Positions 1 through 45,457 of a DNA stretch of 64,000 nucleotides are shown piece by piece. Below the pieces are notes generated by a model. That model searched no databases. It worked only from the letters and a program-made list of their open reading frames with translations, and had not been told where the DNA came from. The first letter of the stretch is position 1. Each line of letters opens with the position of its first letter. Location: contig NZ_CP087999.1 in assembly GCF_021044625.1 (NCBI RefSeq), positions 3,679,001-3,743,000 on the forward strand, in the 5' to 3' direction. Both the position numbers and the translations under genes were made by a program. The DNA comes from Geomonas sp. RF6. GTDB taxonomy: Bacteria; Desulfobacterota; Desulfuromonadia; Geobacterales; Geobacteraceae.

Positions 1-528
1 CTGCGCCTCGATCGAGGCGCCGTCAGGGTCGGTTGCGGAGTAGACGTACAGGACTCCGGCACTCCAGTACCACCGGTTAGCTCCGGAGAGACTTGCAAGG
101 GATGAGACGCGGGTGCCGAAGTCGCCGTTGAACCAGACCATACCCGGTGCGGCGGCGTACGATTTCCGGTAGATCTGCCCGGAATGCGCGGTCCACCCGG
201 TGACGTGGTTGGCGCCGTTGAAAACCGGAGGCTCTCCGCTGCCGTAGGCGCTGTAGGTGATGGGGGCGCCGCTCACGCCGGAGGAGGAGACGCTGAGCAT
301 CTCCCGCCACATTCCCCCTCTTTTGAAGAGGATCTGATCCCCGGGCTGAAACCTCGTGGAATTGACCTTTGCCACGGTTTTCCACGGTGATGAAGATGTG
401 CCGCTGTTATAGTCCATGCCGGTTACTGAATCCACATAGTAGACTGCTGACCATGACGGACTCGCCTGTGCTGCCATACTGATGAATAAAAAGAAGGGCA
501 GGAAAATATTTTTGAATAATTTATTCAT
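1..528 (-). CDS. Secreted right-handed beta-helix (pectate-lyase-like) protein, C-terminus cut by window edge
   Basis: The frame is open from an ATG at 528 to the window edge, giving 176 codons with no stop. The start has a clear GAGGAG ribosome site six bases upstream. Residues 1 to about 28 form a signal peptide ending near Ala-Ser / Trp-Ser-Ala. The mature part opens with a YYVDS motif, then a GT-SSPWKTVAKVN stretch and a PGDQILFKRGG motif. That opening is typical of secreted right-handed beta-helix proteins (DUF1565 or pectate-lyase-fold families), which act on or bind extracellular polysaccharide. Only 71 bases separate it from the FN3 repeat gene upstream on the same strand, so both may be transcribed from the riboswitch-controlled promoter near 2130. 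The catalytic region, if there is one, lies outside the window, so enzyme activity cannot be claimed. Confidence 0.8.
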   Translation of the reverse strand, partial: MNKLFKNIFLPFFLFISMAAQASPSWSAVYYVDSVTGMDYNSGTSSSPWKTVAKVNSTRFQPGDQILFKRGGMWREMLSVSSSGVSGAPITYSAYGSGEPPVFNGANHVTGWTAHSGQIYRKSYAAAPGMVWFNGDFGTRVSSLASLSGANRWYWSAGVLYVYSATDPDGASIEAQ

Positions 529-599: not shown

Positions 600-1895
600 C
601 TATTTCAATGTGAAGTTTGCCCTGATAGTGTGGTTGGACGTCACATTGGTGAAGGTATACGAGGTCCGCGCTCCGACGGAAACGCCGTCGACGACGACGC
701 TGGAGATGACATAGTTGGTGCCCGGGGTGATGGTGAAGGCCCTGCCGTAGCCATGGTTCACCTTCACGTTCCCCTGCGGAGAGATGGCGCCGCCGGTCCC
801 CGCGGAAGCGGCGATGGTGTAGGAGTTGATGCCGAAGGTGGCGCTGATCGTGTGGCTGGCGGTGACGTTGCTGAAGGTGTAGCGGCCCACTGCGCCGACG
901 GAGACGCCGTCGACCTTCACACCGGTCACGTGATATCCCGTCCTCGGCACCATTGTGTAGGTGATGCTCCCCCCCGCGGAGACGGTGGAGGTCCCGGCGG
1001 GGGAGATGCTGCCGCCGCTTCCCGCGCTTGCCGTCACGGTGAGGGCCGCTGCGGGCGCGAAGGTCGCAGCGATGGTGTGAGCTGCGCCGACGTTGGAGAA
1101 GGTATAGGTCGTAACCGCCCCGACAGCGGCGCCGTCGACCGTCACCCCCGCGACGCGGTAGCCGCCCGCCGGGACGATGGAGAAGCTCTGGCTGGCGCCG
1201 GCGGGGACCGAAACGATGCTCGTGGTGGACGTGCCGTCGGTGTATTGGCTGACCGCGCTGTTGTTGACCGCCTTCACGGCGCCGTTTGCCCCTGCCGTGG
1301 CCGTGATGCTGTAGCTCTTGGTGAAGGTCGCCGTTACAGTTGTCGCGGCATTGACGGTTACCGTGCAGGGGCCTGTTCCGGAGCATCCGCCCCCGGACCA
1401 TCCGGAAAAGGACGAGCCGGACGCCGCGACCGCGCTGAGGGTTGCCCCGGTGCCGGATTGCAGAAGGGCCGAGCAGGCTGTGCCGCAGCTTATGGCGCCG
1501 CCGGAGACCGTGCCGGAGCCGGTGCCGCTTTTGGCTACCGTCAGGAGGTACTGGGACAGTGGGAAGGTTTTGCTGATCTCGTTCGCGTAGCCGCTCTGGC
1601 GGCCGCTGGCGTCGTAGGAGGTCACGTTGAAGTAGTAGGTCTGGCCGTCGGTGAGAGAGGGAATTGTGCAGCTCGTGACGTTGCCGACGTCGATGCTCCT
1701 GCTGTAGGAGCCGCTCGAGGTGCCGTAGTAGACCTTGTAGCCGGCGACCGCGCCGGAGGCGGCTGCGTCCCAGGCGATGGTGGTCTGTGCCGCGTGCGAC
1801 GGGGCGCAGGCGAGAAGGAGGGAGAGGACGAGGCAGAAGAGGAGCGAAGCGAGCCCGGCCCTTTGCGGACCGGCAGGTGTGGAAAGTTGTTTCAT
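600..1895 (-). CDS. Secreted protein with fibronectin type III domain and five bacterial beta-repeats
   Basis: This encodes a 431-residue exported protein. Residues 1-35 are a signal peptide ending in SHA-A. Residues about 36-110 form a fibronectin type III domain (WDAAASG, YKVYYG, YYFNVTSYD motifs). From about 114 to the end there are five beta-rich repeats of 75-85 residues, each closing with a pattern like YTFSNV-A-HTI-ATF. Such repeats (InlB B-repeat / bacterial repeat families) occur in surface adhesins and in N-termini of Geobacter extracellular cytochromes. There is no enzymatic motif, heme site or sorting signal, so a scaffold, adhesin or matrix role is inferred. Its 5' leader contains a GEMM-I riboswitch with an overlapping terminator, so expression should follow a cyclic dinucleotide signal. 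The start ATG at 1895 follows a GGAGGG site. Confidence 0.85.
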   Translation of the reverse strand: MKQLSTPAGPQRAGLASLLFCLVLSLLLACAPSHAAQTTIAWDAAASGAVAGYKVYYGTSSGSYSRSIDVGNVTSCTIPSLTDGQTYYFNVTSYDASGRQSGYANEISKTFPLSQYLLTVAKSGTGSGTVSGGAISCGTACSALLQSGTGATLSAVAASGSSFSGWSGGGCSGTGPCTVTVNAATTVTATFTKSYSITATAGANGAVKAVNNSAVSQYTDGTSTTSIVSVPAGASQSFSIVPAGGYRVAGVTVDGAAVGAVTTYTFSNVGAAHTIAATFAPAAALTVTASAGSGGSISPAGTSTVSAGGSITYTMVPRTGYHVTGVKVDGVSVGAVGRYTFSNVTASHTISATFGINSYTIAASAGTGGAISPQGNVKVNHGYGRAFTITPGTNYVISSVVVDGVSVGARTSYTFTNVTSNHTIRANFTLK

Positions 1896-1973
1896 GGGGT
1901 GACCCTCCGTTTCTTGTCAATGCAGGCGGCAGTTCCCCCGCAGCGCCCGGACACTCCGTTCTCCGCACGACAC

Positions 1974-2026
1974 AAAAAAAGCCGGGTGCACGCGAATATC
2001 TGTCCTGATATTTCGGCGACCCGGCT
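1974..2026 (-). terminator. Riboswitch expression-platform terminator
   Basis: On the minus strand an AGCCGGGT arm (2026-2019) and its complement ACCCGGCT (1987-1980) enclose an inner hairpin (CGAAATATC with GATATTCG) and are followed directly by a run of seven T (1980-1974). The 5' arm lies within the 3' half of the riboswitch aptamer, so a ligand-bound aptamer and the terminator should exclude each other. That geometry predicts an ON switch for the downstream FN3 gene. Confidence 0.8.
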
Positions 2027-2095
2027 GTCTCTGGGAGACCCTGTAGGCTTTCCGTCCCACCCTCGCAGGTGGTTTAGTATTGTCGTCTACCTTGT
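2007..2095 (-). promoter_or_regulatory. GEMM-I riboswitch, probable 3',3'-cGAMP-selective variant
   Basis: Read on the minus strand, the leader shows the GEMM-I core: AAACCACC, a GCGA tetraloop, GGTGGGACGGAAAGCCTAC, a second hairpin GGTCTC-CCA-GAGAC, and the closing AGCCGGGTCGCCGA. These are the P2 GNRA loop, the conserved ACG-AAAGCC joint and the P3 receptor of the c-di-GMP-I family. Aligned on the AAACC block, the base that corresponds to G20 of the Vibrio Vc2 aptamer is A (the string ATACTAAACC). A at this position is the signature reported for Geobacter GEMM-Ib switches that prefer 3',3'-cGAMP over c-di-GMP. The aptamer identity is clear from sequence. Ligand preference is inferred from one aligned base. 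It lies between a candidate promoter near 2130-2160 and the FN3 gene. Confidence 0.9.
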
Positions 2096-2131: not shown

Positions 2132-2160
2132 TTTATACGACGAAATGTGCATATGTTCAG
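2132..2160 (-). promoter_or_regulatory. Candidate promoter for the riboswitch-controlled transcript
   Basis: On the minus strand a TATAAA box (2137-2132) sits 17 bases downstream of CTGAAC (2160-2155). Transcription from here would start near 2124 and place the riboswitch at the 5' end of the message. The -10 box is good and the -35 box is weak. Confidence 0.45.
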
Positions 2161-3435: not shown

Positions 3436-4164
3436 ATGGAAGAAAAAAAGATAGCTCTGGTCACCGGAGCAAGCAAGGGAATCGGAGCAGCCACAGCCAT
3501 TGTCCTGGCACGCGAAGGGTACGACATCTGGCTGAATTACCGCTCCAATCACGAGGCGGCCGCTGCCGTGCGCGACGAGATAACCGCCCTCGGACGCTCC
3601 TGCACCCTCCTTTGCTTCGACGTCTCCGACGTCGCCGCCGTAAAGGCGACGCTCTCCCCCCTCCTGGAGAATGAGATTCCGCACGTACTGGTAAACAACG
3701 CGGGGTTTGCGAAGGACACCCTCATGGTGTGGATGGGGGACTCGGAGTGGAAGGACGTCCTCTCCGTGCACCTGGACGGCTTCTTTTACGTGACGAGGCT
3801 CCTCCTCCCGGGGATGCTGAAAAGAAGGAGCGGCAGGATCATCAATATCGCCTCCACCTCGGGGCAGAGCGGCGTGCCGGGGCAGGTGAACTACTCCGCG
3901 GCAAAAGCGGGGCTGATCGGCGCCACGAAGGCGCTCGCGGCAGAAACGGCGAAGCGCAAGGTCCTGGTGAATACCGTTTCCCCCGGTTTCATCGAGACGG
4001 ACATGACAAGCGAGCTCCCGATGGACCGGATCCTCCCCGTCATCCCCATGGGGCGGGTCGGAAAAGCGAACGAGGTGGCGGAGGTCGTGGGCTTCCTCGC
4101 CTCCGACAAGGCCTCGTATGTGACCGGGCAGGTCATCTCCGTAAATGGCGGAGCGTACATGTAG
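3436..4164 (+). CDS. FabG-like 3-oxoacyl-ACP reductase
   Basis: This 242-residue protein is a classical short-chain dehydrogenase. The cofactor motif TGASKGIG is at about 10-17, and the catalytic residues are Ser140, Tyr153 and Lys157 in the pattern NIAST...NYSAAK. The C-terminal VNGGAYM is the FabG-type ending. It would reduce 3-ketoacyl-ACP with NADPH during polyene chain growth. It is the first gene of the plus-strand locus, and its product would pair with the ketosynthases and two dehydratases downstream. The ribosome site is weak (AGGGG 13 bases upstream), and a 113-base gap with a small GC-rich hairpin follows. Confidence 0.9.
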   Translation: MEEKKIALVTGASKGIGAATAIVLAREGYDIWLNYRSNHEAAAAVRDEITALGRSCTLLCFDVSDVAAVKATLSPLLENEIPHVLVNNAGFAKDTLMVWMGDSEWKDVLSVHLDGFFYVTRLLLPGMLKRRSGRIINIASTSGQSGVPGQVNYSAAKAGLIGATKALAAETAKRKVLVNTVSPGFIETDMTSELPMDRILPVIPMGRVGKANEVAEVVGFLASDKASYVTGQVISVNGGAYM

Positions 4165-4277
4165 CACTGAGCCTGACCGCCCTGCGGTCGGGCCTTCCCT
4201 TTCGGGAGGGCGGACGGTAAAAGCCTTGGATCATTCCACGGCATTTTTTTTGATCGCACCACTTACTGCGAGGTCCT

Positions 4278-5498
4278 GTGCACAGAGTAGCAATAACCGG
4301 TATCGGTATCGTCTCCTGCCTCGGCAACACGGTTGATGCGGTGGCAGAATCGCTGCGCGCCGGGAAGTCCGGAATAGTCCACGATCCGGAGCGCGAGAAA
4401 CTCGGTTTCAGAAGCGCCCTGACCGGTGCCATCAGCGGCTTCGATCCGCGGGCGCACCTTTCCAAAAAGCAGGTGAAGACCATGCCGGACTTCGCCGTCC
4501 AGGCCCATGCCGCGGCCCTGGAGGCGCTCGCCATGTCCGGCCTCGCACCGGCCGAAATCGAGAACCCCCGGACGGGGCTGATATTCGGCTGCGACTCCAG
4601 CTGCATCGCCGCCATCGAGCAGGTCGACCTCCTCCGCGAGCGCGGGGAGACGAAGCTGATCGGCTCCGGCCACGTCTTTCGCTCCATGACCTCCTGCATC
4701 ACCATGAACCTCAACACGCTCCTAAAGACCGGCGGCGCCTGCTGGACCATCAGCTCCGCCTGCTCCAGCGGCGGGCACGCGGTCGGCCAGGCGGCGGACC
4801 TGATTGCCTTCGGACGGCAGGAGAGGATCATCTGCGGTGGCGCGCAGGAGCTGAACTGGGAGTCGATGTGCTCCTTCGACGCCCTCGGCGCCTTCTCCAT
4901 CAGGGCTGACGATCCCGCGGCCGCCTCGCGCCCCTTCGACGCCGGTCGCGACGGGCTCGTGCCGAGCGGCGGCGCCGCTGTGGTGATTCTCGAGCGCTAC
5001 GACCTCGCGGTATCGCGCGGCGCGACGATCCTCGGGGAGGTGAAGGGGTACGGATTCTCCTCCGACGGGGCGCATCTCTCCGTTCCGAGCGAGGACGGAC
5101 TGCAGCGGGCGATGCACGACGCGGTCTCCCGCTCCGGCATCAAGGCCGCCGACATCGACTACCTCTGCGCCCACGCCACCTCCACTCCGGCGGGGGACGC
5201 AGCGGAGGCTCGCAACATTGCCGCCTTTTTCGGCGCGAAGACCCCGCCGGTCTCGTCTCTCAAGTCGATGACCGGCCACGAGCTCTGGATGTCCGGCGCC
5301 TCCCAGGTCGTCTACTGCGCCATCATGGCGCGCGACGGGTTCATTGCCCCGAACCTGAACTTCACCGAGCCGGACGAGTTCTCGGCAAAGCTCAACATCG
5401 CAGCGCAACGCATCGACCGGGCGCCGGAGCATGTCCTTTGCAACTCGGCCGGTTTCGGAGGCACCAATTCCTGCCTCGTCCTGGGGTTCGGCGCTTGA
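4278..5498 (+). CDS. Beta-ketoacyl-ACP synthase (KS 1 of the locus)
   Basis: This is a 406-residue thiolase-fold condensing enzyme starting at GTG. The nucleophile Cys162 lies in ISSACSSGG, and the two active-site histidines are in the CAHATSTPAGD and MTGHELWMSGA motifs, so it should be catalytically complete. The second histidine motif is less canonical than the usual GHTLGAAG, which suggests a specialised substrate. It would extend or initiate ACP-bound chains by decarboxylative condensation of malonyl-ACP. It overlaps the next gene by one base (ATGA), so the two are translationally coupled. Confidence 0.88.
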   Translation: MHRVAITGIGIVSCLGNTVDAVAESLRAGKSGIVHDPEREKLGFRSALTGAISGFDPRAHLSKKQVKTMPDFAVQAHAAALEALAMSGLAPAEIENPRTGLIFGCDSSCIAAIEQVDLLRERGETKLIGSGHVFRSMTSCITMNLNTLLKTGGACWTISSACSSGGHAVGQAADLIAFGRQERIICGGAQELNWESMCSFDALGAFSIRADDPAAASRPFDAGRDGLVPSGGAAVVILERYDLAVSRGATILGEVKGYGFSSDGAHLSVPSEDGLQRAMHDAVSRSGIKAADIDYLCAHATSTPAGDAAEARNIAAFFGAKTPPVSSLKSMTGHELWMSGASQVVYCAIMARDGFIAPNLNFTEPDEFSAKLNIAAQRIDRAPEHVLCNSAGFGGTNSCLVLGFGA

Positions 5499-45149: not shown

Positions 45150-45457
45150 TAAAATGTCGCCTGTTTCTTCGGTAGCCAGGCCACCTGTGTTTTACTTTCG
45201 GGTCCTTGGCTTTGTGTCGCTGGAATTTCTTCCAGGTTACCTTTTCGGAAACAGGCTGATTTTTATTGTACCCCTCCCACCGCTCCTGTAAAGCATTTTT
45301 TGCCAAAAAAAATCTGCTGCAACAGGCGCTTCTCTATACACCTCTAAAGCTCTGCATTAGCTCCTACCCTCTCCTGCGTTTCCTCCGCGACGAGCCGATA
45401 CCGAAAGGGATAAAATTACCAGGGGGGAGGGACGCCCCGCCGGTGTCGGAGGTGACG

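Follow-up and report, generated by a model that had tools for sequence, protein, structure and literature searches.

A predicted cGAMP-I riboswitch upstream of a secreted FN3/beta-helix gene unit in Geomonas sp. RF6, and A20-G20 aptamer series in the leaders of related genes

A two-gene unit of Geomonas sp. RF6, encoding a secreted fibronectin type III (FN3) protein and a beta-helix protein, is very likely controlled at the level of transcription by a cGAMP-I (GEMM-Ib) riboswitch located in its leader. The unit lies on the minus strand of a 64,000-nt stretch of DNA, referred to here as the window, which corresponds to positions 3679001-3743000 of the genome, a single contig of 5.26 Mb. Neither the kind of target nor the kind of switch is new, as an FN3 gene preceded by a GEMM riboswitch is already on record in strain KN400 and the cGAMP-I class is itself known; the unexpected part lies outside the window, where comparison of related leaders reveals cGAMP-type aptamers, with A at the position equivalent to Vc2 G20 (A20), followed by c-di-GMP-type aptamers with G at this position (G20). 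The features of the window locus, in the order in which they would be transcribed, are as follows.

2132..2159 (-), possible sigma-70-like promoter, TGAACA (2159-2154), 16-nt spacer and TATAAA (2137-2132), read by eye
2007..2091 (-), cGAMP-I (GEMM-Ib) riboswitch aptamer with extended P1 (GGUA/UAUC), from the RF01051 match and P1 covariation
2078 (-), selectivity base A (equivalent to Vc2 G20 and 4YAZ A14; RF01051 model position 11), from alignment
2050..2052 (-), pocket bases G40-A41-A42, with A41 stacked between the ligand bases, from alignment to the contact list in PMC6274999
2016 (-), ligand-pairing C (equivalent to 4YAZ C75 and Vc2 C92), base-paired in the terminator fold
1974..2026 (-), intrinsic terminator, folding energy -30.9 kcal/mol
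2026-2019 (-), terminator 5' arm AGCCGGGU, inside the aptamer 3' strand
1987-1980 (-), terminator 3' arm ACCCGGCU, the perfect complement of AGCCGGGU
1980-1974 (-), terminator U tract of seven U, read after the 3' arm
1903..1908 (-), Shine-Dalgarno sequence GGAGGG, read from the sequence
600..1895 (-), gene for a secreted protein of 431 aa with FN3 and divergent InlB B-repeat domains, from domain matches
1..528 (-), start of the gene for a beta-helix protein of 548 aa (genome 3679528-3677882), which continues past the window end

When the entire 64,000-nt window was searched against all 4227 Rfam families, RF01051 (c-di-GMP-I/GEMM-I) matched the minus strand at 2012-2088 over the full length of the model, scoring 40.7 bits (gathering score, 35; E 1.6e-4). 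This is the search that a preliminary description of the locus had proposed, and the GEMM-I riboswitch which that description placed at 2007-2095 covers essentially the same span as the P1-extended element at 2091-2007. The P1 extension contains one pair that covaries (A-U/G-C/G-U) across the 23 GEMM-Ib-type aptamers of the genome, and stem covariation is likewise seen in the 23 leaders of this type. The first P2 pairs of the window aptamer, at alignment columns 22/47 and 23/46, are C-G and U-G, like those of the other GEMM-Ib RNAs of the genome, while the P3 position A50-C81 is mismatched, as it is in several other copies. Energy folding of the aptamer alone gave no gain over shuffled sequences (z -0.15) and was left out of the evidence. 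A chance match is excluded because the genome holds 22 more GEMM-Ib-like copies, 81-95% identical save for one G20 copy at 66%, and because GEMM-Ib matches occur in 48/48 sampled genomes of the family.

Alignment places A, not G, at window position 2078, in agreement with the base assigned to the Vc2 G20 position in the preliminary description. In addition, the window RNA has all ten bases reported to contact the ligand in the 3',3'-cGAMP riboswitch structure (4YAZ; contacts and numbering from PMC6274999): G8, A9, A11, A12 and A14 correspond to window 2084, 2083, 2081, 2080 and 2078, and C15, G40, A41, A42 and C75 to 2077, 2052, 2051, 2050 and 2016, with the P1 members of the list located by reading the sequence. 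The preliminary description had taken A20 itself as the mark of cGAMP selectivity. This base is indeed present but is insufficient alone, because the genome also holds one RNA that combines A20 with a c-di-GMP-type scaffold and one with the converse combination, G20 and a cGAMP-type scaffold; the assignment of the window RNA to the cGAMP type is instead supported by the whole pocket together with the C-G/U-G base of P2. The combination that characterizes c-di-GMP-I (GEMM-Ia) RNAs, G20 with a G-C P2 base, is replaced in the window aptamer by A20 and C-G. The element is thus a well-supported candidate for an additional member of the known cGAMP-I class, and we infer that it very probably senses cGAMP.

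A source for this signal is also predicted. Among the 31 GGDEF matches in the genome, some of which are two pieces of a single domain, one (genome 3561235-3561708) bears the Hypr signature GHLVGS...GGDEY, with Ser in the GHxxGS motif. Its best PDB match is 6d9m (2.7e-60), a lysozyme-fused construct that agrees with the one reported for GacA of G. metallireducens (PMC6456294). The genome therefore appears to encode an ortholog of the GacA-type cGAMP synthase, and cGAMP probably can be made in this bacterium.

It is unlikely that the aptamer is a promiscuous sensor through which the FN3 unit follows c-di-GMP as well as cGAMP. Sensitivity to both messengers has been reported for the omcST operon riboswitch (PMC6456294), A20 cGAMP riboswitches can bind c-di-GMP via a protonated adenine (cited in PMC9262584), and FN3 relatives in other genera also use a c-di-GMP-type aptamer; however, the pocket and lower P2 of the window RNA are of the cGAMP-RNA type, and the pgcA riboswitch is ~1200-fold selective (PMC6456294). 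That 22 copies combine A20 with C-G/U-G at the P2 base, while G20 accompanies G-C in the window's own c-di-GMP-type aptamer, and that a GacA ortholog is found in the genome, make it most improbable that the element is a c-di-GMP-I riboswitch carrying a neutral G20A change, even though the best family model, RF01051, is named c-di-GMP-I.

The expression platform of the predicted cGAMP riboswitch excludes the aptamer. Consistent with the preliminary description, the 5' arm of the terminator (2026-2019) lies within the aptamer and pairs with the arm at 1987-1980, which is followed by seven U. The energy of -30.9 kcal/mol is that of the fold from the aptamer 3' strand onward, in which the ligand-binding C75 is paired, and the fold of the window leader is 3.4 SD more stable than those of shuffled sequences. 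Nearly all A20 leaders in the genome share this overlapping-terminator layout. Similarly, the pilM cGAMP ON switch ceases to bind its ligand once the terminator has captured C75 (PMC9262584), and deletion of gacA in G. sulfurreducens lowered transcripts downstream of GEMM-Ib riboswitches and raised termination near the aptamer (PMC6456294). The capture of C75 as in pilM, the genome-wide layout and the gacA-deletion transcripts together make ON logic the best reading, so that the prediction of an ON switch holds on the basis of the overlapping terminator; since RNA folding programs take no account of the aptamer's tertiary structure, the direction of switching is deduced from the exclusivity of the two folds. 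Under this model, in the absence of ligand the aptamer 3' strand, beginning with AGCCGGGU, would pair with the downstream ACCCGGCU to form a strong terminator that also takes up the C required for ligand pairing, and transcription would stop. Co-transcriptional binding of cGAMP, supplied by the GacA-type Hypr GGDEF enzyme, would hold the aptamer and its P1 helix and so keep the terminator from forming, and both genes, for the secreted FN3/InlB-repeat protein and for the beta-helix protein, would be expressed. A constitutive terminator hairpin next to a decayed aptamer that has lost switching might be read from the energies (-30.9 kcal/mol for the hairpin stretch versus -24.0 for the aptamer alone), but with all pocket bases and P1 pairing intact and a similar energy balance in the other A20 leaders of the genome, it is scarcely credible.

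The genes placed under this predicted switch are those named in the preliminary description. The FN3 protein combines one fn3 domain (PF00041, 4.1e-7) with an InlB-B-repeat match (PF18998, 1.4e-16) and a signal peptide-like start, and the gene downstream encodes a right-handed beta-helix protein (PF13229, 6.1e-17), from which a surface or matrix role of the two proteins may be inferred. The possible promoter at 2132..2159 (-), read from the sequence alone, is absent from the list produced by a promoter scan. The suggestion that the unit extends the regulon of this signal to surface proteins stands in so far as the FN3/beta-helix unit is confirmed; such a target is not new in kind, as a GEMM riboswitch is reported in front of the FN3 gene KN400_1971 (PMC13194489), and earlier work had established pili and polysaccharides as targets (PMC6456294).

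The window element belongs to a large set. The genome contains 27 GEMM-I matches (23 with A20, 4 with G20), and 22/23 A20 RNAs share an AAUACU core as well as C-G and U-G at the P2 base. Three A20 leaders besides that of the window are followed directly by FN3 genes (L017, L025 and L026), the unit behind L025 consisting of two consecutive FN3 genes and that behind L026 of an FN3 + malectin gene followed by a pectate-lyase-like beta-helix gene. FN3 genes are accordingly enriched as first genes behind A20 leaders, with 4/17 units versus 15 FN3 ORFs in the genome (p ~2e-7, assuming ~4600 genes, within an estimated range of 4000-5000). Among the remaining A20 units are those of a YkuD/SPOR protein, which has a pair of aptamers in front of it, of a PilZ response regulator and of an M15 peptidase. 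Larger arrays were also observed: four A20 aptamers in tandem (L010, L015, L019, L014; genome 3033428-3034088, minus) lie upstream of a PEP-CTERM/polysaccharide export cluster, and an A20 pair (L011 and L016; genome 1571620-1571969, minus) lies upstream of apparent NiFe hydrogenase genes, named from sequence. The window itself holds a second GEMM-I aptamer (45168-45251, minus, 53.9 bits) of the G20 type with G-C at P2. No clear gene lies immediately downstream of it, and SAQ-coding repeats follow in a run within ~500 bases.

Comparison further brought to light candidate natural intermediates between cGAMP and c-di-GMP specificities. One RNA (L022:1501-1577, genome 3266573-3266649), upstream of a FemAB/GNAT gene, has G20 on an otherwise cGAMP-type scaffold with a C-G P2 base and would be either a natural intermediate or a revertant; hybrids resembling it occur in L065 and L174:5973-6082. 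Another (L004:1501-1587, genome 2979557-2979643) has A20 on a c-di-GMP-type scaffold, with G at the first P2 position and then U-A.

Homologs of the FN3 protein were sought in 58 relatives, and their leaders were read with a covariance model built from the window's genome. The homologs show 51-53% identity over nearly the full length, and the adjacency of FN3 and beta-helix genes is kept in relatives and other genera, mostly behind leaders with A20 aptamers. In eight leaders (L110, L111, L114, L115, L116, L118, L126 and L235), a canonical G20 aptamer of the c-di-GMP type comes after the A20 aptamer or aptamers; it scores 71-86 bits and is the top GEMM-I match of its respective genome. In a ninth (L219), upstream of an FN3-like gene named from sequence, the second aptamer, also G20, is of the RF03167 type. 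These nine intact mixed FN3 leaders come from eight genomes and five genera, and their order is always A20 then G20, with one or two A20 terminator switches preceding one G20 aptamer. Wherever the downstream sequence was read, each A20 aptamer has its own U-tract terminator, while 3' of the G20 aptamer lies a hairpin that pairs the Shine-Dalgarno sequence (AGUACCUC...GGAGGUACU; covariation in G005, the genome of L235), and then the FN3 gene. The mixed leaders read in the first eight genomes examined all precede FN3 genes. The leader of the homolog nearest to the window FN3 gene (G010, L109) keeps three intact A20 aptamers together with a decayed G20 aptamer, from which the strand that would carry G20 is deleted (L109:4214-4305). 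Only the A20 part is left in the Geomonas and window leaders, and the interval 1974-1895, which separates the window terminator from the FN3 start, shows no G20 remnant and is too short to hold one.

As a means of translational control by the G20 aptamer, a P0 helix between an upstream GGAGGU and the anti-Shine-Dalgarno ACCUCC was considered; it was plausible in several leaders and failed in G005, where the Shine-Dalgarno and anti-Shine-Dalgarno sequences have changed together and the upstream GGAGGUG is unchanged. In Nitrospirota and other Deltaproteobacteria, FN3 relatives carry G20 GEMM-I aptamers just upstream (L162, L174, L152, L168 and L190), which suggests that the link of the FN3 family to c-di-GMP may be old.

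These leaders incline us to the view that a serial cGAMP/c-di-GMP RNA gate, of which the window locus would be a simplified descendant, often controls secreted FN3 genes in the Geobacter family. According to PMC6456294, cGAMP and c-di-GMP have opposing actions and c-di-GMP inhibits GacA; a serial gate would therefore respond over no more than a limited range of conditions if both of its switches are ON, and with an OFF switch in second place it would sharpen the opposition. The cGAMP/c-di-GMP pair is absent from the published tables of tandem-riboswitch gates (PMC9481103), a survey that lists c-di-GMP-I doublets as homotypic, and an earlier mention in the founding cGAMP-riboswitch papers is possible. 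If true, the likely serial gate of the relatives would constitute a two-messenger logic gate on signals reported to oppose each other. More broadly, secreted, repeat-rich FN3 and beta-helix proteins would stand beside cytochromes and pili among the most consistent cGAMP targets of the family, and a matrix or attachment role for cGAMP becomes testable.

Of the known systems, the Geobacter cGAMP-I/GEMM-Ib riboswitches (pgcA/GSU1761, pilM, Gm0970) have in common with the window RNA A20, the ten pocket bases and the C-G/U-G P2 base, and likewise the overlapping terminator, the ON logic and a GacA signal source; they differ in target, which is a cytochrome or pilus gene rather than a secreted FN3 + beta-helix unit. 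Like the window locus, G. sulfurreducens KN400_1971 has a GEMM riboswitch before a fibronectin type III surface protein (PMC13194489), a likeness by description that does not imply orthology, and the paper in question speaks of c-di-GMP. The c-di-GMP-I riboswitches (Vc2 type, RF01051; also RF03167) share the overall fold and family model with the window RNA but have G20 and a G-C/C-G P2 base where it has A20 and C-G/U-G. Finally, the tandem logic gates (Sherlock 2022, PMC9481103) consist of serial aptamers, each with its own platform, as do the leaders of the relatives, in contrast to the single aptamer of the window FN3 leader.
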